Shown: piece after piece, positions 4,398-22,800 of the stretch | Layout: each line of letters begins with the position of its first letter | How positions within the stretch are numbered: position 1 is the stretch's first letter | Assembly (NCBI GenBank): GCA_017305555.1 | Contig: JAFKKM010000061.1 | Span: 24,655-57,066 of the forward strand | Length of the DNA: 32,412 nt | Origin: Hyphomicrobiales bacterium | GTDB taxonomy: Bacteria; Pseudomonadota; Alphaproteobacteria; Rhizobiales; Xanthobacteraceae | Reading direction: 5' to 3' | Notes under the pieces: model-generated | What the model was told of the DNA's origin: nothing | Seen by the model: only the letters and a program-made list of their open reading frames with translations | Database searches by the model: none | Program-made: the position numbers and the translations under genes

Positions 4398-5939
4398 ATG
4401 CGTATGCTTGCGCTCGTCTTCGCCGCGCTTGTCGTGATCGTCTGCAATGGCGGCGATGCCTTGGCCGCCAAACGGGTGGCGCTCGTTATCGGAAATTCGG
4501 CCTATCGGAACGTCGCGCCGCTTACCAACCCGGCCAACGACGCAGCTGCGATTGCCGCGATGTTCAGGCAGGCGCAGTTTGATGTGGTGGCGCTGCACGG
4601 TAATCTTGGCAACGTTGAGATGCGTCGTTCGCTCCGCGAATTCTCGGATCAGGCGCGTGGGGCCGATATCGCGGTCGTCTATTTCGCCGGGCATGGCATC
4701 GAGATCGACGGCGTGAACTATCTGATCCCGGTCGATGCAACCATCGAACGTGACACCGATGCTTATGACGAGGCCATCGCACTGGATCGAATCCTGCAAG
4801 CGGTCGAGCCCGCAAAACAGCTTCGCCTCGTGATCCTCGATGCTTGTCGCGACAATCCATTCGCCAAGAAAATGCGGCGCATGTTGGCGGTGCGCACGAT
4901 CGGGCGCGGCCTCGCTGGCGTTGAGCCGAGCCAGCCCAATACGCTGGTGGCTTATGCCGCAAAGGGCGGTTCGACGGCCTCCGACGGTGGTGGCAAGAAC
5001 AGTCCGTTCGCCAGCGCGTTGATCAAGCATCTGACGACGCCGGGCCTCGGTGTGCGCCGGGCCTTCGGCTACGTGCGGGACGATGTTTTGGCAGCGACCG
5101 GCAATCGTCAGGAACCGTTCGTCTACGGTTCGCTCGGCGGCGATGAAGTCACGTTGGTCCCGGCGGCACCTGTTACGGCGGCCGCGGTTCAGGACGTACG
5201 CGGCGACTACGAACTCGCTGACAAAGTTGGCACCGTCGAAGCGTGGGATTCCTTTATCAAGACCCATCCGACCGGTTTCTATACCGATTTGGCCAAGGCA
5301 CAGCGCAACAAGTTACGGAACGACGCGCCGCCGCGGGCTGACGCAGCGTCCGTCCCGCAAAAGTCAGGCGAGGCCGTGCCCGCTCCGCAGACGAAGCCGC
5401 AAGCCGTTGCGGCGCTACCATCCGCCGAGGATGCGTCTTCGCGGGTTGCAGGAGCGCCGAATTTGGATACGTCGCGTTTGCTTCAGGTTGAATTGGCCCG
5501 CGTCGGTTGCGCGACGGGCGAACCCGACGGCGTATGGGGAGCAGCTTCGCAACGCGCGCTCGCATCGTTCAACCGTCACGCCAGGATGCAATTGGATACC
5601 AGCCTCGCAAGTGTTGAGGCGCTGGACGCTGTGCGTGGCCGGCGCGGCCGCGTCTGCCCGCTAAGCTGCGAACGCGGTTCTCACGCGATTGGCGGCAAAT
5701 GCGTGGCCTCGACGTGCCGGCGCGGCTATGAGCGTGACGATGCTGGCGTTTGTCGTCCCGTCGCTCGATTCGAGCGAACCGCGCGCTCCCGTGAGCCGCG
5801 CGAGCGTCGTGAACCCGTGCCACGGCAAGCCCCAAATGCCGCGCAGGTCATTTGCAACGACCATGGCTGCCGCCCTGTCAGCAGAGGCTGCCGCGCGGCG
5901 GTTGCGTCCGGCCCATTTCAATCGGAGGTCTGTAACTGA
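4398..5939 (+). CDS. Secreted caspase-like protein (peptidase C14) with Cys-rich C-terminus
   Basis: A 513-residue protein. Residues 1-23 form a signal peptide ending in DALA. Residues 25-250 are a caspase-fold (C14) domain: KRVALVIGNSAY opens it, the catalytic His is H99 in YFAGHG, and the catalytic Cys is C150 in ILDACRDNPF; AAKGGSTASDG follows as in bacterial orthocaspases. Near residues 270-310 is a conserved helical stretch (ADKVGTVEAWDSFIKTHP). After a Pro/Ala-rich linker comes a region like a peptidoglycan-binding helix bundle (RVGCATGEPDGVWGAASQRA), then a Cys-rich tail with about nine Cys that probably form disulfides in the periplasm. Both dyad residues are intact, so it may be a periplasmic protease; the target is unknown. 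TGAGG precedes the ATG. Confidence 0.87.
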   Translation: MRMLALVFAALVVIVCNGGDALAAKRVALVIGNSAYRNVAPLTNPANDAAAIAAMFRQAQFDVVALHGNLGNVEMRRSLREFSDQARGADIAVVYFAGHGIEIDGVNYLIPVDATIERDTDAYDEAIALDRILQAVEPAKQLRLVILDACRDNPFAKKMRRMLAVRTIGRGLAGVEPSQPNTLVAYAAKGGSTASDGGGKNSPFASALIKHLTTPGLGVRRAFGYVRDDVLAATGNRQEPFVYGSLGGDEVTLVPAAPVTAAAVQDVRGDYELADKVGTVEAWDSFIKTHPTGFYTDLAKAQRNKLRNDAPPRADAASVPQKSGEAVPAPQTKPQAVAALPSAEDASSRVAGAPNLDTSRLLQVELARVGCATGEPDGVWGAASQRALASFNRHARMQLDTSLASVEALDAVRGRRGRVCPLSCERGSHAIGGKCVASTCRRGYERDDAGVCRPVARFERTARSREPRERREPVPRQAPNAAQVICNDHGCRPVSRGCRAAVASGPFQSEVCN

Positions 5940-6039: not shown

Positions 6040-6636
6040 ATGACCTTCAAACTTCCCGATTTGCCTTACGCCTATGATGCGCTCGCTCCTCATATGTCCA
6101 AGGAAACGCTGGAGTTTCACCACGACAAGCACCATCAGGCCTATGTCACCAATGGCAACAACCTGCTGAAGGGCACGGAATTCGAGAACAAGTCGCTGGA
6201 AGAGATCGTCAAGGGCTCCTACGGCAAGAATGCTGCGTTGTTCAACAACGCCGGCCAGCACTACAACCACCTTCATTTCTGGAACTGGATGAAGCCGAAT
6301 GGCGGCGGCAGCAAGCTGCCCGGCCGTCTGGAAAAGAAGATCAACGAGGACCTCGGCGGCCTCGAGAAGTTCAAGGCGGATTTTGCCGCCGCCGGCGCCG
6401 GACAGTTCGGCTCGGGCTGGGCTTGGCTGTCGGTCAAGAACGGCAAGCTCGAAGTCTCCAAGACCCCGAACGGCGAGAACCCGCTGGTCCACGGCGCGAC
6501 CCCGATCCTCGGTGTCGACGTCTGGGAGCACTCCTACTACATCGACTACCGCAACCGCCGCCCTGACTATCTGAAGGCGTTCGTCGATCATCTCGTGAAC
6601 TGGGAGTACGTCGACGACCTGCTCGGCAAGGCCTGA
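6040..6636 (+). CDS. sodB: Superoxide dismutase, iron type
   Basis: A 198-residue Fe/Mn superoxide dismutase that converts superoxide to oxygen and peroxide in the cytoplasm. Metal ligands are in place: H27 (in LEFHHDKHH), H77 (in YNHLHFWNW), D160 and H164 (in VDVWEHSYYIDYRN). Gln73 in AGQHYNH occupies the position from which iron-type enzymes supply the active-site Gln, so I call it Fe-type; cambialistic use of Mn cannot be excluded. Length is normal for the family. ATG 6040 was chosen because the family begins at FKLPDLPYAYDALAPH. It is monocistronic, with its own promoter and a strong hairpin terminator. Confidence 0.95.
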   Translation: MTFKLPDLPYAYDALAPHMSKETLEFHHDKHHQAYVTNGNNLLKGTEFENKSLEEIVKGSYGKNAALFNNAGQHYNHLHFWNWMKPNGGGSKLPGRLEKKINEDLGGLEKFKADFAAAGAGQFGSGWAWLSVKNGKLEVSKTPNGENPLVHGATPILGVDVWEHSYYIDYRNRRPDYLKAFVDHLVNWEYVDDLLGKA

Positions 6637-6808: not shown

Positions 6809-6837
6809 TTGTTATGTTATAGTGTAACATATATAGA
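6809..6837 (+). promoter_or_regulatory. Promoter of the zinc operon with Zur-box-like operator
   Basis: TATGTTA (6813-6819) and TAACATA (6825-6831) form a perfect 7-bp dyad with a 5-bp centre, closely resembling Zur operators of the ATGTTATANNNTAACAT type. It fills the spacer of a promoter whose -35 is TTGTTA (6809-6814) and whose -10 is TATAGA (6832-6837), 17 bp apart. Zur bound with zinc would therefore block polymerase, and transcription would rise when zinc is scarce. The match to zinc uptake genes immediately downstream makes the assignment stronger than the motif alone. The rest of the 300-bp gap after sodB holds only the sodB terminator and a leader of about 95 nt. Confidence 0.75.
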
Positions 6838-6898
6838 ACCTGTACAGCAGCTTGGCTGCCGGAAGGTATTTTCTAGCGCCGCGCGCACGAGCCGTCAC

Positions 6899-6940
6899 AT
6901 GGCGACCGAGTTCACCCGAGCCGAGACATTCGACCGATGA
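6899..6940 (+). other. Possible 13-codon upstream ORF coupled to the zinc operon's first gene
   Basis: ATG at 6899 opens a 13-codon frame (MATEFTRAETFDR) whose TGA overlaps the ATG of the His-rich gene as ATGA. It lies in the leader after the Zur-box promoter. There is no good Shine-Dalgarno before it, nor before the ATG at 6937, so translational coupling is conceivable. It may equally be chance. Confidence 0.25.
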
Positions 6941-7125
6941 CCCATTCGCACGCACATAGCCACGGCGCGGCCGGCGCGCACCATCATGCGCCGGAAGCGC
7001 CACACCCGGCGCAGCGGGCAACGGTTTCGCTGCTGCGGATGACGCTCGCAGAGCGGCTGGGTTTGGCGATCCTTCTCAGTGTCGGTCTCTGGGGCCTGGT
7101 CTGGCTGGCGATGAGGCCGGCATGA
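6937..7125 (+). CDS. Small His-rich single-span membrane protein, first gene of the zinc operon
   Basis: A 62-residue protein of unknown family. Eight of the first 24 residues are His (THSHAHSHG, then AHHHAPEAPH), a composition typical of zinc-binding tails. Residues about 40-59 (LGLAILLSVGLWGLVWLAM) form a single transmembrane helix, after a short basic/amphipathic stretch. It follows the Zur-box promoter and its stop overlaps the start of the ATPase gene as ATGA, so it is co-translated with the importer. By inference it could bind zinc at the membrane and hand it to or from the importer, or tune its activity; no function is established that I know of. The frame's codon choice fits its neighbours, and the position makes it likely to be real. 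Confidence 0.7.
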   Translation: MTHSHAHSHGAAGAHHHAPEAPHPAQRATVSLLRMTLAERLGLAILLSVGLWGLVWLAMRPA

Positions 7126-7880
7126 GTGCGCAACTGCAATTCCGCAACGTTACCCTCGGCTATGACCGCCATCCTGCCGTCCATCACCTCGCGGGCGAGG
7201 TCGCGAGGGGTGCGCTGCTCGCGGTGGTGGGGCCGAACGGCGCCGGCAAGTCGACGCTGTTTCGCGGCATCGTCGGTCTGCTCAAGCCCCTGTCGGGGAC
7301 CATCGAGCGCGGTGGTCTTGGTGTTCGCGATATCGCCTTCCTGCCGCAAAGCGCCGACATTGATCGTAGTTTCCCGCTCTCGGTATTCGATTTCGTCGCC
7401 ATGGGCCTGTGGCGCGATGCTGGCGCGTTTGGCGGCATTCGCGGGCGGCGACGCCAACGGGTGCAGCAGGCGCTGGCTGCTGTGGGTCTGACCGGATTCG
7501 AGCGGCGCGCCATCGGCACGCTGTCGGGTGGCCAGATGCAGCGCATGTTGTTCGCGCGGCTGATGTTGCAGGATGCGCAAATGATCGTGCTCGACGAGCC
7601 GTTCAACGCCGTCGACGCCAAGACTTCGGCCGATCTGCTACATCTTGTTCAGCATTGGCACGCCGAGGGACGCACCGTGTTGGCAGCGCTGCACGACATG
7701 GATCTGGTGCGCAATCATTTCCCGCAAACCCTGCTGCTGGCGCGCGGCGCCGTGGCTTGGGGCGATACCGCGCAGGTGCTGACGCCCGACAATCTCATCG
7801 CCGCACGGCAGATGTGCGAAGCCTTTGACGACGAGGCGGGGGCGTGCGCGGCGGAAGTTGCATCAGCGCGGGCGGCCTGA
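7122..7880 (+). CDS. znuC: Zinc ABC transporter, ATP-binding protein (ZnuC/AztA type)
   Basis: A 252-residue ABC ATPase that powers zinc import from the cytoplasmic side. Walker A is GPNGAGKST (37-45), the Q-loop lies near LPQSADI (75), the signature is LSGGQMQR (134-141), Walker B is MIVLDEP (154-160) and the switch His is H191 (ALHDMD). The LMLQDAQMIVLDEPFNAVDAKT stretch and the short C-terminus suit the AztA branch of cluster A-I (zinc/manganese) transporters better than enterobacterial ZnuC; the symbol znuC is used in the general sense. It overlaps the upstream His-rich gene by 4 nt and is 3 nt from the permease gene. Confidence 0.9.
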   Translation: MSAQLQFRNVTLGYDRHPAVHHLAGEVARGALLAVVGPNGAGKSTLFRGIVGLLKPLSGTIERGGLGVRDIAFLPQSADIDRSFPLSVFDFVAMGLWRDAGAFGGIRGRRRQRVQQALAAVGLTGFERRAIGTLSGGQMQRMLFARLMLQDAQMIVLDEPFNAVDAKTSADLLHLVQHWHAEGRTVLAALHDMDLVRNHFPQTLLLARGAVAWGDTAQVLTPDNLIAARQMCEAFDDEAGACAAEVASARAA

Positions 7881-7883
7881 CCC

Positions 7884-8753
7884 ATGATCCACGATCTGCT
7901 GATCACGCCTTTCACCGAATTCGAGTTCATGCGCCGTGCGTTGGCGGGCGTAGTGGCGCTGTCGCTCGCCGGTGCGCCGATCGGCGTGTTCCTGATGTTG
8001 AGGCGGATGAGTCTGGTCGGCGACGCCATGGCGCATGCGATCCTGCCCGGCGCGGCCATCGGCTTTTTGCTCTCCGGCCTCAACCTGTTTGCGATGACGT
8101 TCGGCGGATTGATCGCAGGCTTTACTGTGGCGATCCTGTCCGGCGTGGTCGCACGCAACACCGAATTGAAAGAGGACGCGGCGCTCGCGACCTTCTATCT
8201 CGCGTCGCTGGCGCTCGGCGTTACCATCGTGTCCATGCGCGGCACCAATATCGATCTGCTGCACGTTCTGTTCGGCAATATCCTGGCGCTCGACGATCAG
8301 ACGCTGCTGGTGATCGCGTTCAACGCCACCATCACGCTGCTGGCGATGGCGGTGATCTATCGTCCGCTGGTGGTGGAATGCGTCGATCCGGTGTTCCTGC
8401 GCACCGTCAGCCGTGCCGGGGCGCCAACGCATCTCGTCTTCATGGCATTGGTGGTGATCAATCTCGTCAACGGCTTCCATGCGCTCGGCACGCTGCTGGC
8501 GGTGGGCCTGATGATCCTGCCCGCCGGCATCGCGCGATTCTGGTCGCGTGATATTACCGGCATGATCGCGGTCGCAGTGGTGAGCGCGGCGCTGTCCGGC
8601 TATGCCGGATTGGTGCTGTCGTATCACGCCGGCGTGCCGTCGGGACCGGCAATCATCCTGATTGCGGCTGGACTATATGTCGTCTCGGTTTTGTTCGGCA
8701 GCGTCGGCGGCCTGTTGCGGCAGTGGTTCCCCGGCCGCCATCTCGAGGCTTGA
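7884..8753 (+). CDS. znuB: Zinc ABC transporter, permease (ZnuB/AztB type)
   Basis: A 289-residue ABC-3 family permease with about eight hydrophobic segments. The conserved LRRMSLVGDAMAHAILPGAAIGFL block (residues 34-57) is the hallmark of zinc/manganese importers, and HALGTLLAVGLMILPAGIARFWS (about 198-220) is the second conserved stretch that contacts the ATPase. The ATG at 7884 is 3 nt after the ATPase stop, and the TGA at 8751 is followed by one base and then the ATG of the binding protein, so translation is tightly coupled. The homodimeric permease would form the channel for the two ATPase subunits and receive zinc from the periplasmic binding protein. Confidence 0.9.
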   Translation: MIHDLLITPFTEFEFMRRALAGVVALSLAGAPIGVFLMLRRMSLVGDAMAHAILPGAAIGFLLSGLNLFAMTFGGLIAGFTVAILSGVVARNTELKEDAALATFYLASLALGVTIVSMRGTNIDLLHVLFGNILALDDQTLLVIAFNATITLLAMAVIYRPLVVECVDPVFLRTVSRAGAPTHLVFMALVVINLVNGFHALGTLLAVGLMILPAGIARFWSRDITGMIAVAVVSAALSGYAGLVLSYHAGVPSGPAIILIAAGLYVVSVLFGSVGGLLRQWFPGRHLEA

Positions 8754-8754
8754 A

Positions 8755-9651
8755 ATGCGATTGTTACGTATCGCCTTTGCCGCATCGATTCTGCTCGCCG
8801 GCGTCCTTGCGCAGGGGGCGGTTCGTGCCGACGAACGCATCAAGGTGGTGGCGAGTTTCACCATCCTTGCCGATTTTGTCCGCAATGTCGGCGGTGACCG
8901 CGTCGATGTGGTCGCTCTGGTCGGCCCCAATGCCGATGCGCACGTCTATACGCCGTCGCCGGCGGACGCGAAGACCATCGCCGCCGCAAAACTGGTGGTG
9001 GTCAACGGGCTCGGCTTTGAAGGCTGGTTGCCGCGTCTTGTGAAATCCAGCGGCGGCACGGCGCGGATCGTGGTGGCGACCGACGGTATCGTTCCCCTGA
9101 AAGAACCGCCGGGCGGCCACCACAGCGTCGATCCGCACGCCTGGCAATCGGTGCCGAATGCGAAGGTCTATGTCGAGAATATCCGGCGGGCGCTGGCCGA
9201 GGTTGATCCGGCATCCGCTGACAGCTATCGCGCCAATGCAGCGCGTTATGTCGTCCAACTCGATGCGCTGGATCGCGACGTCCGCGCGATGGTCGCACAA
9301 ATTCCGGAAGCCCGCCGCAAGGTGATCTCGACCCACGGCGCATTCGGCTATTTCGCCGCCGCCTATGGGGTGGCCTTCGTCGCGCCGCAGGGCGTGTCGA
9401 CGGACACCGAGCCGAGCGCGCGCGATCTCGCCAGCATCATCGCACAGATCCGCAAGGAAAAAATTCCGGCGGTTTTCCTTGAAAATATCAGCGATCCTCG
9501 CCTGATCCGGCGCGTCGCCGCCGAAACCAGCGCGAAAATCGGCGGTACGCTGTATTCCGACAGCCTGACCGACGAAAAGGGCGAGGCCCCCACTTACATT
9601 GACATGGTCAGGCACAATATTAAGACGTTGCAAGACGCGCTGGATAAGTAG
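8755..9651 (+). CDS. znuA: Zinc ABC transporter, periplasmic substrate-binding protein (ZnuA/AztC type)
   Basis: A 298-residue cluster 9 (A-I) binding protein. Residues 1-25 are a signal peptide ending VRA. The four expected metal ligands are visible: H63 (ADAHVYTPSP), H128 (DPHAW), H194 (STHGAFGYF) and D269 (LYSDSL). The flexible loop before the second ligand is short (GGHHSVDPHAW) and lacks the long His-rich insertion of E. coli ZnuA, as in AztC. A frame open to 8662 was rejected because the signal peptide starts at 8755, one base after the permease stop. With three His and one Asp the site fits zinc, though manganese binders look similar; the Zur box and neighbours favour zinc. Confidence 0.9.
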   Translation: MRLLRIAFAASILLAGVLAQGAVRADERIKVVASFTILADFVRNVGGDRVDVVALVGPNADAHVYTPSPADAKTIAAAKLVVVNGLGFEGWLPRLVKSSGGTARIVVATDGIVPLKEPPGGHHSVDPHAWQSVPNAKVYVENIRRALAEVDPASADSYRANAARYVVQLDALDRDVRAMVAQIPEARRKVISTHGAFGYFAAAYGVAFVAPQGVSTDTEPSARDLASIIAQIRKEKIPAVFLENISDPRLIRRVAAETSAKIGGTLYSDSLTDEKGEAPTYIDMVRHNIKTLQDALDK

Positions 9652-9701: not shown

Positions 9702-10790
9702 ATGTCCGAAACCACCGCTGAAAAAATCCCCGTGACCGTGCTGACCGGCTATCTCGGCGCCGGCAAAACCACCCTGCTCAATCGCATCCTGTCCGAGAAC
9801 CACGGCAAGAAATACGCCGTGATCGTCAACGAATTCGGGGAAATCGGCATCGACAACGACCTGATCATCGGCGCCGATGAAGAAGTGTTCGAAATGAACA
9901 ACGGTTGCATCTGTTGCACCGTGCGCGGCGATCTCGTCCGCATTCTTGACGGTTTGATGAAGCGGAAGGGCAAGTTCGATGCGATCATCGTCGAGACCAC
10001 CGGCCTCGCCGATCCCGCGCCGGTCGCGCAGACTTTCTTTGTCGATGAAGACGTGCAGAACAATGCGCGGCTCGATGCGGTGGTGACGGTCGCCGACGCC
10101 AAGTGGTTGAGCGACCGTTTGAAGGACGCGCCGGAGGCCAAGAACCAGATCGCCTTCGCCGATGTTATCGTGCTGAACAAGACCGATCTGGTGACGCCGC
10201 CGGAACTGGCCGAAGTCGAGGGCCGCATTCGCGCGATCAACCCTTACGCAAAACTGCATCGCACCCAGCGCTGTCAGGTGGCGCTGTCAGACGTGTTGGA
10301 ACGCGGCGCATTCGATCTCGACCGCATTCTCGAACTGGAGCCGGAATTCCTCGCGGCGGATGAGCATGACCACGATCATGAGCATTGCCACGACGAGAAC
10401 TGCACCCACGAGCATCATCATCACGACCACGATCACCACCATCATGATCACGACCACGGCCATGGTCACGGCATGAAGCACTATCACGACGAGGACATGC
10501 AGTCCTTGTCGCTGCATAGCGACAAGCCGCTCGATCCCAACAAGTTCATGCCATGGTTGCAGCAACTGGTCGCGACCGAAGGCCAGAAGATCCTGCGTTC
10601 CAAGGGTATCCTCGCCTTCAGCGGCGACGACGATCGTTACGTATTCCAGGGCGTCCACATGATGCTCGAAGGCGATCACCAGCGCGCGTGGAAAGAAGGC
10701 GAGCCGCGCCAAAGCCGGTTGGTGTTCATTGGTCGCGAACTGCCTGAGCAGACCATTCGCGACGGCTTTGAACGGTGTATCGCGGCGTGA
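9702..10790 (+). CDS. COG0523 / CobW-family G3E GTPase, zinc chaperone-like
   Basis: A 362-residue G3E P-loop GTPase. Walker A is GYLGAGKTT (16-24), the metal-binding CxCC motif is GCICC (68-72), the switch II/Walker B region is VETTGLADPAP, and the guanine-specificity motif is NKTD (159-162). Residues 222-262 are an extreme His/Asp-rich loop (about 20 His) followed by the CobW C-terminal domain (about 280-360). Zur-controlled COG0523 proteins such as YeiR, ZagA and ZNG1 are thought to deliver zinc to client enzymes when zinc is scarce. ATG 9702 has CCGGAG ahead and is preferred to GTG 9696. It sits 50 nt after znuA and overlaps the WD40 gene. Cobalt or nitrile hydratase roles are less likely, given the context. 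Confidence 0.9.
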   Translation: MSETTAEKIPVTVLTGYLGAGKTTLLNRILSENHGKKYAVIVNEFGEIGIDNDLIIGADEEVFEMNNGCICCTVRGDLVRILDGLMKRKGKFDAIIVETTGLADPAPVAQTFFVDEDVQNNARLDAVVTVADAKWLSDRLKDAPEAKNQIAFADVIVLNKTDLVTPPELAEVEGRIRAINPYAKLHRTQRCQVALSDVLERGAFDLDRILELEPEFLAADEHDHDHEHCHDENCTHEHHHHDHDHHHHDHDHGHGHGMKHYHDEDMQSLSLHSDKPLDPNKFMPWLQQLVATEGQKILRSKGILAFSGDDDRYVFQGVHMMLEGDHQRAWKEGEPRQSRLVFIGRELPEQTIRDGFERCIAA

Positions 10791-11809
10791 GCAAGGCGTT
10801 CGAACCATCCGAAAATTCGGACTCCATCGTTTCGGTCACCGATCGCGTTCGCCCGATCGAAATCGGAATGCCGGTCAGTGCCGTGCATTTCCTCGGTGAA
10901 ACCGCGGTCTTCGTCGGCGATGAGGAAATGCTGACGTTCGTGACCGGAAGCGGAGAGGCGGCGCGGCTGCCGGTCCACGACGGCGCCGTTCTCTGCGTGG
11001 CCTCGGACGGCAAACGGATCGTCACCGGCGGCGACGACGGCAAAGTCGTCGAGGTCAAGGCCGACGGCAGCGTCGCGACGGTTGCGACCGATGCCAAGCG
11101 GCGCTGGATCGACAACGTCGCGCTCCATCCCGATGGCGCGGTGGCGTGGTCCGCCGGCAAGACGGCGTTTGTCCGCAGCGCGAAAGGCGAGGAGAAGTCC
11201 CGCGACGTGATCTCCACGGTTGGGGGGCTGGCCTTTGCGCCGAAAGGCTTGCGGCTGGCGATCTCGCACTATAACGGCGTGACGCTGTGGTTTCCCAACA
11301 TGACCGCAACGCCGGAAGTGCTCGACTGGGCCGGCTCGCATCTCGGCGTCGTCTTCAGCCCCGACAACAAATTCCTGGTGACGTCGATGCATGAGCCGGC
11401 GCTGCACGGCTGGCGTCTCGCCGATGCGCGTCACATGCGGATGACTGGTTATCCGACGCGCGTGAAGTCGGTGTCGTGGAGCGCGGACGGCAAGTCGCTC
11501 GCGACCTCGGGCGCCGACACCATCATCCTGTGGCCGTTCGCCAGCAAGGATGGCCCGATGGGCAAGGAGCCAGGCATCCTTGCGCCAATGCCGTCGCGGG
11601 TGACGATGGTGGCGTGCCATCCGAAGCAGGAGATCATCGCGGTCGGCTATTCCGATGGCACGGTGCTGATGGTTCGCATTTCCGATGGCGCCGAGATTTT
11701 GGTGCGGCGTAAGGTCGAGCAGGCGATCGCGGCACTTGCCTGGAACGCCAAAGGCAGCGTGCTGGCGTTCGCCGACGCCGATGGCAACGCGGGACTATTC
11801 ACGCTGTAG
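10787..11809 (+). CDS. Cytoplasmic WD40-repeat protein paired with the G3E GTPase
   Basis: A 340-residue protein with no signal peptide, made of about seven WD40-like blades. Repeating units can be seen in LGVVFSPDNKFLVTSMHEPALHGWRL, VKSVSWSADGKSLATSGADTIILWPF, MVACHPKQEIIAVGYSDGTVLMVRI and AALAWNAKGSVLAFADADGNAGLF. WD40 propellers usually serve as docking platforms. The GTG at 10787 overlaps the GTPase stop (GTGA), so the two are translationally coupled; a GTG at 10775 in the same frame is the alternative start. The coupling suggests that the propeller acts with the GTPase, perhaps as scaffold or client adaptor in zinc delivery. That role is inference, and I know of no characterised member. 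Confidence 0.82.
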   Translation: MSKAFEPSENSDSIVSVTDRVRPIEIGMPVSAVHFLGETAVFVGDEEMLTFVTGSGEAARLPVHDGAVLCVASDGKRIVTGGDDGKVVEVKADGSVATVATDAKRRWIDNVALHPDGAVAWSAGKTAFVRSAKGEEKSRDVISTVGGLAFAPKGLRLAISHYNGVTLWFPNMTATPEVLDWAGSHLGVVFSPDNKFLVTSMHEPALHGWRLADARHMRMTGYPTRVKSVSWSADGKSLATSGADTIILWPFASKDGPMGKEPGILAPMPSRVTMVACHPKQEIIAVGYSDGTVLMVRISDGAEILVRRKVEQAIAALAWNAKGSVLAFADADGNAGLFTL

Positions 11810-16636: not shown

Positions 16637-16655
16637 CTGATCGCGGAGCGATCAG
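16637..16655 (-). other. Hairpin overlapping the odc stop codon
   Basis: CTGATCGC (16637-16644) and GCGATCAG (16648-16655) are perfect 8-bp complements around a 3-base loop, and the 5' arm of the minus-strand hairpin includes the TGA of odc. It may stabilise the 3' end of the message. Confidence 0.4.
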
Positions 16656-17794
16656 ATGTGATAGGTCTTCAGCGGCGGGATGCCGTTGAAGGCCACCGAC
16701 GAGTAGGTCGAGGTATACGCCCCGGTGCCTTCGATCAGCAGCTTGTCGCCGATCTCGAGCGTGACGGGCAGCGGATACGGCACCTTTTCGTACAATACGT
16801 CGGCCGAATCGCAGGTCGGGCCGGCGAGGATGCACGGCGCCATCTCCGCGCCGTCGTGCGGCGTCTTGATGGCGTAGCGGATCGACTCGTCCATCGTCTC
16901 GGCGAGGCCGCCGAACTTGCCAATGTCGAGATAGACCCAGCGGTTCTCGTCGTCGTCGCTCTTCTTCGAGATCAGCACCACTTCCGTCTCGATGATGCCG
17001 GCGTTGCCGACCATGCCGCGGCCCGGCTCGATGATGGTTTCCGGGATGCGGTTGCCGAAGTGCTTGCGCAGCGCGCGGAAGATCGAGCGGCCGTACTGCA
17101 CCACCGGCGGCACGTCCTTCAGATAACGGGTCGGGAAGCCGCCGCCCATGTTGACCATGGAGAGGCTGATGCCGCGCTCGGCGCAGTCGCGGAACACCTG
17201 CGAGGCCATCGCCAGCGCACGGTCCCACGCCTTCACCTTGCGCTGCTGCGAACCGACATGGAACGAGATGCCGTACGGCTCGAGGCCGACGCGCTTGGCA
17301 TGCTCGATCACGTCGACCGCCATCTCCGGGTCGCAGCCGAACTTGCGCGACAGCGGCCACTCGGCGCCGGCGCAATCGTAGAGGATGCGGCAGAACACCT
17401 TGGCGCCGGGGGCGGCGCGGGCGACCTTCTCCACCTCGGCGGTGCAGTCGACCGCGAACAGGCGAATGCCCAGCGCGAAGGCGCGCGCGATGTCGCGCTC
17501 CTTCTTGATGGTGTTGCCATAGGAGATGCGGTCCGGCGTCGCGCCGGCGGCCAGCGCCATTTCGATCTCGGCGACGGTCGCGGTGTCGAAGCACGAGCCG
17601 AGCGAGGCCAGCAGCGACAGCACTTCCGGCGACGGGTTCGCCTTGACGGCATAGAACACGCGCGAGTCAGGCAGCGCCTTGGCGAAGGTCTGGTAGTTGT
17701 CGCGCACGACCTCGAGGTCGACCACGAGGCACGGCTCGGTGTCGAGACCTTCGCGGCGGCGGTTGCGGAGGAATTCCTGGATACGTTCGGTCAT
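16652..17794 (-). CDS. odc: Ornithine (lysine) decarboxylase, fold-III PLP enzyme
   Basis: A 380-residue eukaryote-like (alanine-racemase fold) decarboxylase that turns ornithine into putrescine. The PLP lysine is K51 in FYAVKANP, the phosphate-binding Gly-rich loop is VNMGGGFPTRY, EPGRGMVGNAG binds PLP, and the catalytic Cys is in TCDSADVLYE near the C-terminus. HVGSQ is also present. Many alphaproteobacterial members also accept lysine, so dual specificity is possible. ATG 17794 is preceded by GGGAGAG five bases away; the in-frame extension to 17950 is part of the RNA leader. Together with hss it makes a putrescine-to-homospermidine route. The long structured leader suggests control by polyamines or ornithine. 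Confidence 0.93.
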   Translation of the reverse strand: MTERIQEFLRNRRREGLDTEPCLVVDLEVVRDNYQTFAKALPDSRVFYAVKANPSPEVLSLLASLGSCFDTATVAEIEMALAAGATPDRISYGNTIKKERDIARAFALGIRLFAVDCTAEVEKVARAAPGAKVFCRILYDCAGAEWPLSRKFGCDPEMAVDVIEHAKRVGLEPYGISFHVGSQQRKVKAWDRALAMASQVFRDCAERGISLSMVNMGGGFPTRYLKDVPPVVQYGRSIFRALRKHFGNRIPETIIEPGRGMVGNAGIIETEVVLISKKSDDDENRWVYLDIGKFGGLAETMDESIRYAIKTPHDGAEMAPCILAGPTCDSADVLYEKVPYPLPVTLEIGDKLLIEGTGAYTSTYSSVAFNGIPPLKTYHI

Positions 17795-17840
17795 CGCACT
17801 CTCCCAATCGGCCCAGCGACGGACCGTTGAAAAACCGTTC

Positions 17841-17908
17841 TTCGGATGTGAGCGCTTCGGCCCGGCCGCACGATGGAGGTGCGACGAAGCCTCGGACTCA
17901 TATCCGAA
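17841..17908 (-). ncRNA. Structured leader element close to odc start
   Basis: Three nested stems read on the minus strand. The outer one is 17908-17897 with 17852-17841 (12 pairs, one mismatch), the middle one GCTTCG/CGAAGC (17890-17885 with 17859-17854), and the inner one CGCAC/GTGCG (17883-17879 with 17871-17867) closing a 7-base loop CTCCATC. The loop holds CUCC, which could pair with the GGAG of the odc ribosome-binding site. The position, about 46 nt before the ATG, suits a translational switch. Rfam's speF leader is known upstream of alphaproteobacterial ornithine decarboxylases and may be what this is; I cannot test it here. Confidence 0.5.
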
Positions 17909-18012
17909 CTGTGCTGCCGTGGATTGGTTGGGAATTTCCCGCCCGCTCACCTGGCAATGAAGGACAAGCCTTTTCAGTAGCCCGCGCCGGCGTTGGACTG
18001 CCGGTAGAGACC

Positions 18013-18065
18013 AAAAAAGCCCGCTCCGTCGTTGCTTTAAGTCGCGTCCCCCGTTGAGAGCGGGG
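18013..18065 (-). promoter_or_regulatory. Attenuator-like alternative hairpins in the odc leader
   Basis: On the minus strand CCCGCTC (18064-18058) pairs with GAGCGGG (18026-18020), which is followed by C and six T (18018-18013), as in an intrinsic terminator. The same 5' segment (CCCCG, 18065-18061) can instead pair with CGGGG (18053-18049). The two pairings exclude each other, a terminator/antiterminator arrangement. It lies about 220 nt before the odc ATG. Confidence 0.5.
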
Positions 18066-18111
18066 TGCGCCGGTTCGCCTCCGGCTGCCGGTCACGGTTG
18101 CAAGTCAATGA

Positions 18112-18152
18112 GACCCTTCAAGCGGCGCATCCCTTGAGAGAGATGCTGGGTC
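18112..18152 (-). ncRNA. Nested hairpin in the 5' part of the odc leader
   Basis: GACCC/GGGTC (18152-18148 with 18116-18112) encloses GCATC/GATGC (18146-18142 with 18131-18127). The stretch also opens a 12-codon frame (ATG at 18130, TGA at 18094-18092; MRRLKGLIDLQP), a possible leader peptide whose AAGGG is too close to the ATG to be convincing. Confidence 0.4.
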
Positions 18153-18243
18153 CCATTTCCTTGGCGGCTGTCCGGCCTCTTGTCCGGATACCCACCGACC
18201 GACACACGACCACAGGCACGTGCGAAATTGGGCAGAGCGGGAG

Positions 18244-21082: not shown

Positions 21083-21718
21083 ATGCATCGACTGTATGGA
21101 ATGCTGTTGATCGTGATGTTGCTCGTCGTCAGTGCGACGACCGCGTCGGCGCATCCGCATGTCTGGGTCAAGGCCGCGAGCGAACTGATCTATGCGCCGG
21201 ACGGTACCGTCACCGGCGTGCGGCATACCTGGACCTTCGATGATATGTTTTCGACCTATGCCTTGCAGGGCATCGAAACCAAGACCAAGGGTGTCTACAC
21301 CCGCGAGGAATTGGCGCCGTTGGCGCAAACCAATGTCGATTCGCTGAAGGAGTTCGGCTTCTTCAGTTTCGCCAAGGCGGACGGCAAGAAGCAGAAATTC
21401 AATGAGCCGACCGATTACTATCTCGAATACAAGGACACCGCGCTGGTGCTGCACTTCGTGCTACCGTTCAAGACGCCGTTCAAATCCCGGCAGATGCAGC
21501 TCGAGGTGTTCGATCCGTCCTATTTCGTGGATTTCCAGTTGCAGGACAAGGATCCGATCAAACTGGTTGCGGCACCTGCGGGCTGCGCGATGATAATCGA
21601 GCGTCCGAGCGACGGCTCGGCCGCAGCGAAGAAGCTGGGCGAGGATAATTTCCTCGACGGCAGTAACGATAATTTCGGCGCGATGTTCGCCAATAAGGTG
21701 ACGGTGAACTGCCCATGA
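21083..21718 (+). CDS. zevA: ZevA-like periplasmic protein (DUF1007)
   Basis: A 211-residue protein. Residues 1-23 are a signal peptide ending ASA, and the mature protein begins HPHVWVKA, the conserved start of DUF1007, where the His cluster may bind metal. TWTFDDMFSTYAL, VDSLKEFGFFSF and FKSRQMQLEVFDPSYFVDF follow the family pattern. In Haemophilus influenzae the DUF1007 protein ZevA works with the NicO protein ZevB in zinc acquisition. Here the stop overlaps the start of a NicO gene by 4 nt, the same pairing. AAGGAA stands nine bases before the ATG, next to the palindromic repeat; the frame from 20966 runs through the repeat and is rejected. Confidence 0.85.
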   Translation: MHRLYGMLLIVMLLVVSATTASAHPHVWVKAASELIYAPDGTVTGVRHTWTFDDMFSTYALQGIETKTKGVYTREELAPLAQTNVDSLKEFGFFSFAKADGKKQKFNEPTDYYLEYKDTALVLHFVLPFKTPFKSRQMQLEVFDPSYFVDFQLQDKDPIKLVAAPAGCAMIIERPSDGSAAAKKLGEDNFLDGSNDNFGAMFANKVTVNCP

Positions 21719-22800
21719 CCCTGCGAAGCGAGGATGCCGTTCGCAGGGGTGCGGTGTGGTCGATCCTTCTGGTCGCCGCGGTGCTGTCGGCCGATGGTAT
21801 CTTTCATGCTGCCCTCGCGCAGAACCCGTTCGGCGCGCCGCGCGCGGTGCCGGACCAGCAGGTCGGTGGGATCATTGGCTGGGTTCTCGCGAAGCAATCC
21901 GAGTTCTATCGCGCGATGTCCTCGACCATTCGTGCCGCCAAGAACGACGGCAGCGCGGTCTGGACCCTGCTCGGCATCTCCTTCGCCTACGGCATCTTCC
22001 ACGCCGCCGGGCCAGGTCATGGCAAGGCGGTAATCTCGTCGTATCTGGTTGCCAACGAAGAAACCGCGCGGCGCGGCATCGTGTTGTCGTTCGCATCGGC
22101 ATTGGCACAGGCGCTGGTGGCGGTGGTGATCGTCGGCATCGGCGCGTGGCTGCTGAATGTCACCGCGAAAACCATGTGCGGCGCCGAGCGCATCATCGAG
22201 ATCGCGAGCTACGGGCTGATCGCCGCGTTCGGCGCGCGGCTGGTCTGGGTCAAGGGCGGCGGGTTTTTTCGCGCGCTGTCGGCGTCGCGCGCATCCGGCC
22301 CGCAACTCGCGATGGCGCATCATCACCACGAGCACCACGGTGATGGGCATGGTCATCATCACGATCATCACCATGATGCCGCCCACCATCATCACCACCA
22401 CGATCACGACGCACATTGCGGGCATTCCCATGGACCGGAACCGGAGCAGTTGGCCGGGCCGGGCGGTTGGAAGCGCGGCCTCGCCGCGGTCGCGGCAGTC
22501 GGTATCCGACCCTGTTCCGGAGCGATCCTCGTGCTGGTGTTCGCCTTGGCGCAGGGGCTGTTCTGGGCTGGTGTCGCCGCGACCTTCGTGATGGGGCTCG
22601 GCACCGCGATCACCGTTGCCGCCATTGCCACCCTCGCGGTATCCGCCAAGGGTGTGGCGCGACGTCTTGCCGCCGGCCGCAACGGTGGCGGCGCGCTGGT
22701 GATGCGTGGCGTGGAGTTCGCCGCCGCCGGTCTCGTCCTGCTGCTCGGCACCGGCCTGCTGCTGGGCTATGTCTCCGCCGAGCGCGTCACCTGTTTCTGA
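21715..22800 (+). CDS. zevB: ZevB-like NicO family metal transporter with poly-His loop
   Basis: A 361-residue inner-membrane protein of the NicO family. FAYGIFHAAGPGHGKAVISSYLV (about 92-114) is the family's first signature and GIRPCSGAILVLVFALAQG (about 263-281) the second. Between them, residues about 203-240 form a cytoplasmic or periplasmic loop with more than 20 His, which would concentrate metal. NicO proteins include RcnA (Ni/Co export) and ZevB (zinc). Pairing with DUF1007 points to the ZevAB type; the direction and metal remain to be shown. It overlaps zevA by ATGA. A GCCGTGAC inverted repeat follows before hemH. Confidence 0.87.
   Translation: MTLRSEDAVRRGAVWSILLVAAVLSADGIFHAALAQNPFGAPRAVPDQQVGGIIGWVLAKQSEFYRAMSSTIRAAKNDGSAVWTLLGISFAYGIFHAAGPGHGKAVISSYLVANEETARRGIVLSFASALAQALVAVVIVGIGAWLLNVTAKTMCGAERIIEIASYGLIAAFGARLVWVKGGGFFRALSASRASGPQLAMAHHHHEHHGDGHGHHHDHHHDAAHHHHHHDHDAHCGHSHGPEPEQLAGPGGWKRGLAAVAAVGIRPCSGAILVLVFALAQGLFWAGVAATFVMGLGTAITVAAIATLAVSAKGVARRLAAGRNGGGALVMRGVEFAAAGLVLLLGTGLLLGYVSAERVTCF

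Follow-up and report, generated by a model that had tools for sequence, protein, structure and literature searches.

A 62-residue protein encoded directly upstream of the ATPase gene in a zinc operon of a Hyphomicrobiales bacterium is a real and widespread component of an established importer type, unnamed in the literature searched. The protein, here labelled AztX for convenience only, is probably an accessory subunit of the AztABC zinc importer with a single membrane helix. Modestly favoured is also the wider reading that AztABC importers across Alphaproteobacteria and beyond carry an unrecognised extra membrane subunit, which was lost in the AztABCD lineage and repeatedly gained a cytoplasmic His-rich tail for zinc transfer. 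The stretch of DNA analysed comprises 32,412 nucleotides (hereafter the window), and the features of the operon are compiled in Table 1.

Table 1 Features of the zinc operon, with positions counted from the first nucleotide of the window
Feature	Position	Strand	Basis and remarks
Zur-type box TGTTATAGTGTAACA	6815–6829		Palindrome, 1 mismatch to TGTTATNNNATAACA
Miniprotein gene (62 aa, AztX)	6937–7125	+	First gene of the operon; sequence, selection, linkage to AztA
His-rich N-terminal tail, residues 1–24, 8 His	6937–7008	+	Lineage-variable; alignments, tree
Conserved pre-helix motif S31-L-L-R-M-T-L-A-E-R40	7027–7056	+	Alignments of 28 and 37 sequences
Single membrane helix, residues 37–59, including W52	7045–7113	+	AlphaFold2 model
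aztA, zinc ABC transporter ATPase	7122–7880	+	NF040873, 217.9 bits; cut-off 220
aztB, permease	7884–8753	+	NF040871, PF00950
aztC, zinc-binding protein	8755–9651	+	NF040870, PF01297
COG0523/CobW-type GTPase, His-rich insert, putative zinc chaperone	9702–10790	+	PF02492, PF07683; translation

The ORF reads MTHSHAHSHGAAGAHHHAPEAPHPAQRATVSLLRMTLAERLGLAILLSVGLWGLVWLAMRPA, and its translation has a single hydrophobic stretch and histidines at positions 3, 5, 7, 9, 15, 16, 17 and 23. The stop codon (TGA, 7123–7125) shares an ATGA overlap with the start codon of the ATPase gene at 7122. The preliminary description of a 62-residue protein with eight His in its first 24 residues and one membrane helix, preceded by a Zur-box promoter and overlapping the ATPase start, is borne out by the ORF, the box and an AlphaFold2 model; the start given there, 6809, lies near the edge of the box and not at that of the gene, which begins at 6937. 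The importer had there been set against the standard ZnuABC model; the NCBIfam models best matching its ATPase, permease and binding protein are AztA, AztB and AztC, rather than ZnuCBA, with scores of 217.9, 265.1 and 316.5 bits against curated cut-offs of 220, 280 and 350. In an ATPase tree the protein of the window groups with the AztA rows, apart from the ZnuC-like ones, and AztC is the sole match to PF01297 (ZnuA family) in the genome at E ≤ 0.001. Going by these best matches, the same ATPase, permease and binding protein families constitute the AztABCD importer (NF040873, NF040871, NF040870, NF038015), from which the operon differs by its extra first gene and by the lack of the metallochaperone AztD, for which no match at E ≤ 0.001 was found in the genome of the window.

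Downstream of the COG0523 GTPase, genes for a WD40 protein and an MgtC-type protein follow. The WD40 gene (10775–11809) overlaps the end of the COG0523 gene, encodes a protein with no evident signal peptide and keeps the same place in three relatives (L157, L158, L159). On its upstream side the operon is adjoined by a gene for an Fe/Mn superoxide dismutase (6040–6636), which is also the neighbour in genome G005 (L158), and a caspase-like (Peptidase_C14) protein is encoded at 4398–5939. At 16652–18233 on the minus strand, Rfam matches to the speF leader and the ar45 sRNA lie upstream of a gene whose translation suggests a putative ornithine-decarboxylase-like protein.

The association of the miniprotein gene with aztA was followed outwards from the host genome. 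A search with the single sequence retrieved it from 29 of 61 genomes (its own counted), and in 20 of 20 fetched loci it stood directly before aztA with a gap of −7 to +8 nt. Within the host family, a 19-member profile (E ≤ 0.01) gave 133 hits, distributed over 131 of 149 genomes; 131 of these hits are located directly 5′ of an AztA match. Counted from the best AztA place per genome, i.e., with second places omitted (including one of 204 bits in G010) and likewise three genomes with a weaker best AztA match and no miniprotein hit (G078, G160, G168), 131 of 133 family genomes have an adjacent profile hit, and the ORF is visible by eye in the other two (G106, G070; L139, L140). All 13 family genomes devoid of an AztA match at 1e-50 belong to the 18 in which no miniprotein hit was obtained, and an adjacent-type hit in the absence of AztA was observed in none of the host-family genomes.

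Within the host order, 52 of the 58 hits of a wider profile precede an AztA match; of the six that remain, the hit in G206 also stands before an AztA-like ATPase (L125). An adjacent profile hit was missing at 40 of 92 AztA-model places; inspection of 24 of these 40 revealed five clear miniproteins (L113, L114, L116, L117, L122) and two divergent ones (L142, L145), the places without miniprotein being eight AztA of the AztD-operon clade, L115, L124 and seven ZnuC-like ATPases. For the host class, 39 AztA-model places were detected in 38 of 240 genomes, 26 of them with an adjacent profile hit. Five of the 38 places outside the window, all chosen by the AztA model alone, are ZnuC-like (35–41 % identity) and carry no miniprotein; among the other 33, a short single-helix ORF ending at aztA is present in 30, L184 and L193 carry a more divergent form, and genome G356 (L191) has its profile hit 1.1 kb upstream.

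Named genomes were collected by the AztA protein alone. Among the best 80 of at least 578 such matches, 79 carry the ORF by rule, ordinary laboratory genera among them (e.g., Rhodopseudomonas palustris XCP, Bradyrhizobium sp. BTAi1 and Nitrobacter winogradskyi), and in the 80th (L274) inspection by eye located it some 160 bases farther upstream. Outside the class, a sample of the phylum provided 17 places: all 13 with E ≤ 3.7e-5 are located directly before an AztA-like ATPase (11 at 50–57 % identity, two at 36 %), and the four with E ≥ 1e-3 are not. Two loci outside the class (L366, L367) harbour short-tailed, His-bearing ORFs resembling the miniprotein upstream of an ATPase that shares only 36 % identity with AztA, possibly representing a spread of the miniprotein to another importer type. 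In most loci the miniprotein stop is near the aztA start (gaps of −13 to +82). Of the marks of the functional class of small single-helix transporter subunits, a single helix and conservation with one transporter operon were found here. The additional component of a Zur-type zinc operon that had been proposed beforehand is upheld: the gene is conserved directly upstream of aztA, and its product has no match to Pfam or NCBIfam models at E ≤ 0.001. The roles considered for it there, a zinc relay or a regulator of importer assembly, are candidates.

The miniprotein gene is a real coding gene under purifying selection. Compared to the nearest relative (L271), 1 nonsynonymous and 18 synonymous changes were counted over the full ORF, and 0 and 6, respectively, over the first 25 codons. 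For the 38-codon core, the median dN/dS is 0.31 in frame (2830 pairs from 81 sequences) versus 1.44 and 1.69 in the other two frames. In the 30-codon tails of 81 loci, 783 of 2346 codons specify His (CAC 426, CAT 357), versus 26 and 63 of 2265 in the other frames; the use of both codons and the scarcity of His out of frame indicate that the amino acid is kept, and not a simple DNA repeat. Three plasmid records name the ORF a hypothetical protein (Paracoccaceae La 6, QEW23251.1; Skermanella rosea, WP_203101353.1; Thioclava, WP_339115353.1), and two further ones, in which the gene table is incomplete, list the ATPase without it.

Judged from the alignments, the widespread part of the protein is a membrane core of about 35 residues with one predicted helix and positive charge on its N side. 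S31, R40 and W52 are invariant in 28 aligned sequences, and over 37 sequences R40 and W52 remain so, with S31 in 90 % or more, a conservation that is partly circular because the members were gathered with profiles; the rule scoring the named loci itself demands R...W. The core follows the pattern S-x-[LIF]-[LMR]-x-[ST]-x3-R-[LVIM], succeeded by a helix usually with L/I-W and often with W-A near its end. The mid-helix Trp is absent in 4 of the 30 class ORFs (L200, L201, L204, L209) and in the two divergent ones. AlphaFold2, supplied with the 19-sequence alignment, modelled one long helix over residues 37–59 (pLDDT about 97 over 41–60) and a tail devoid of secondary structure (pLDDT about 60). 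A profile-based structure search of the PDB returned nothing credible. Lys plus Arg are more numerous before than after the hydrophobic stretch in 127 of 133 distinct sequences, equal in 6 and reversed in 0, and a mean of 3.2 residues follows this stretch. Under the positive-inside rule, this charge bias predicts a tail-anchored protein with its N-terminal tail in the cytoplasm. A zinc relay, as considered in the preliminary description, would hence, if any, operate only where zinc leaves the permease.

The His-rich tail is variable. At least five His before the core were counted in 26 of 91 rows of the AztA tree and fewer in the other 65, the counts for relatives referring to the open frame before the core (in named loci to the 50 residues before the core Arg) and not to start sites. 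On the AztA tree the tail label needs 11 changes, five of which are forced by well-supported branches, and many members consist of the core only, with about 32–45 residues. All 79 named rule-passing loci have at least three His and 78 of them at least five, with a range of 3 to 18. In the refuting check set out beforehand, the frame proved conserved upstream of homologous importers, and the His cluster as well within the host family, but not in many other lineages; since the cluster is lineage-bound and the core widespread, "His-rich miniprotein" names a lineage-specific addition. The tail as defining feature of the protein was accordingly rejected, as it is missing in many lineages in which the core persists. 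A downstream COG0523 gene (45 % identity or more) accompanies 11 of 17 loci with a tail of at least five His and 5 of 29 without (Fisher p = 0.003, uncorrected for kinship), counted among 46 loci in which 4 kb or more of sequence follows the aztA start; the remaining 6 of the 17 tailed operons have no such gene downstream. A trade-off between the His of the tail and the His-rich loop of AztC was rejected as well, no relation between the two being found (rho −0.08, p 0.65, n = 37).

Loci without the miniprotein were placed on a midpoint-rooted tree of 124 ATPases labelled by rule, 112 of which are AztA rows. None of the 12 others has the miniprotein; these are termed ZnuC-like, a label assigned by identity (33–41 % to AztA of the window) and by their grouping in a clade of their own. 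Sixteen of the 112 AztA rows are labelled as lacking it, namely 12 in one clade nested among carriers, L115 apart from these, and L191, L211 and L215, where despite the label a profile hit lies about 1.1 kb before, directly before and about 0.2 kb before AztA, respectively. Two rows (L184, L193) were set to carrier by hand. The Klebsiella locus (L230), which stands beside the 12-row clade, was labelled a carrier by a looser rule and is counted here as lacking, as no miniprotein was seen by eye at this plasmid locus.

The 12-row clade comprises aztABCD of Paracoccus versutus, a Shinella locus with divergent aztD, two genomes with AztD in the cluster (G273, G333) and also AztA from genomes without any AztD match. 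AztD as a strict replacement of the miniprotein is not supported: no match to it was found in seven genomes with a miniprotein-less AztA (G217, G252, G057, G250, G215, G307, G268), and genome G149 has both, so that AztD is not tied to the miniprotein-less importer alone. In this genome (C1) the AztD gene is located 1.7 Mb away from the miniprotein–AztA locus. Across the class sample, none of the 240 genomes matches AztD at 1e-20. AztB is not clearly longer in the absence of the miniprotein (288, 290, 291 and 299 aa versus 288 and 289 aa in two carriers). The absence of the miniprotein from the AztABCD clade, L230, L115 and L124 implies that the importer can do without it. The simplest reading, with a midpoint root that is not secured, is that of an ancient component which disappeared from the line of the AztABCD systems characterised biochemically.

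The Zur-type box sits 107 nt before the ATG of the miniprotein gene, and the 7-1-7 inverted repeat in this promoter marks the gene by sequence as a candidate member of the Zur regulon. A box matching TGTTATANTATAACA at 12–14 of 14 positions precedes the miniprotein core in 79 of 79 named rule-passing loci. In a survey of 91 rows (90 loci, L122 being counted twice), the best box matched at least 11 of 14 positions in 47 rows, so that many loci outside the host family show no such box; the mean best match over the survey was 10.15, versus 7.69 in shuffled sequences. Boxes of this quality (at least 11 of 14) end 46–110 nt before aztA in five rows of the miniprotein-less AztD-operon clade and 227 nt before it in a sixth, versus mostly 120–280 nt in carriers. 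From box and gene order we infer that the miniprotein would be co-regulated with aztABC under Zur. Elsewhere in the window (21086–22800), the gene for a DUF1007 protein precedes that for a NicO-type metal transporter whose loop is very rich in His, a pair resembling ZevAB; no Zur box with up to three mismatches was found just upstream of it. DUF1007 genes also adjoin aztA on Thioclava and Paracoccus plasmids.

No description of the miniprotein was found in the open-licence PMC literature. AztABC-like zinc importers are known as ZniCBA from Rhizobium leguminosarum (PMC12183173) and Klebsiella pneumoniae (PMC10797113), and the available excerpts of these two reports mention no small gene at ZniCBA. 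In Cupriavidus, the name ZniCBA designates an unrelated efflux system. For R. leguminosarum, a Zur motif 153 bp before zniC and a stretch between 258 and 88 bp before zniC that is required for expression are given in the excerpts (PMC12183173). At locus L122, from the same order as the host, 156 bp separate the end of the box from aztA, and the miniprotein ORF fills this gap; by analogy of spacing, the ORF may well be present before R. leguminosarum zniC, too.

Small single-helix subunits of transporters are already known, and KdpF and CydX are short one-helix proteins, each tied to one membrane complex. AcrZ is likewise short, with one helix, and tied to one membrane complex (PMC7267776). The present protein differs from these three by its association with a metal ABC importer and by the His tail of some lineages. 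CbtB (PF09489), a putative cobalt transporter subunit of about 60 aa with one helix and rich in His, was also considered; membership was rejected, as the miniprotein has no Pfam match at the threshold given above, and the nine families to which one or more of the 19 members matched at E ≤ 1 did not include CbtB, a limit at which HMMER filters drop most weak matches.

Under the favoured reading, zinc starvation would act via the Zur-controlled promoter to induce AztX as first cistron of aztX-aztABC. The N-terminus would stay in the cytoplasm while the helix inserts with its C-terminus out, and the core (S-x-L-R-x-S-x3-R, then a helix usually with Trp) may pack against AztB, aiding its folding, stability or coupling to AztA, much as AcrZ, KdpF and CydX serve their partners. 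In some lineages, that of the window included, a disordered His-rich tail would have been added on the cytoplasmic side, where it may capture Zn2+ as the ion exits AztB and either pass it on or act as a buffer, perhaps to the benefit of the COG0523 GTPase encoded in the operon. In this scheme we infer the binding to AztB, the effect on transport, and the binding and hand-off of zinc.

Rather unlikely is that AztX serves mainly as a membrane-tethered cytoplasmic zinc chaperone, the His tail of which ferries zinc from AztB to clients such as COG0523, while its helix is a mere anchor. The numerous His before the core in the named loci, the cytoplasmic side predicted for the tail by charge, its co-occurrence with COG0523 genes and the amino-acid selection on it (no nonsynonymous change versus L271) would all suit a chaperone; most tree rows, however, lack the tail yet keep the helix core, and a mere anchor would not need the conserved Ser and Arg. 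An assembly or turnover factor, which helps AztB to insert or controls its degradation without being a lasting subunit, is improbable, its position as first cistron before aztA and aztB and its small single-helix architecture being compatible with such a role, as all observations made here are equally with a stable subunit. Distinctly improbable is a regulatory leader, the translation or nascent-chain insertion of which controls aztA translation while the product itself is without function: first position, a stop near the aztA start in most loci and a hydrophobic C-terminus would fit, but the low dN/dS and the conservation of the peptide beyond the class argue against it, as does a coupling that is not universal (G356 and L274, with the distances given above). 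A chance ORF or annotation artefact, as might be suspected from the shortness and the missing family match, has a practically negligible probability, being refuted by the selection at codon level, and disfavoured by the linkage to AztA and by the annotation as hypothetical protein in the three plasmid records.

In current descriptions, zinc ABC importers consist of three parts plus periplasmic helpers, and to our knowledge no small subunit is known for importers of the zinc/manganese type; AztX would, if the favoured reading is true, be the first. A conserved further membrane product, short and sometimes unannotated, would change the reconstitution and the assays of these importers, and its His-tailed form would offer a handle on the fate of zinc after it has left the permease.
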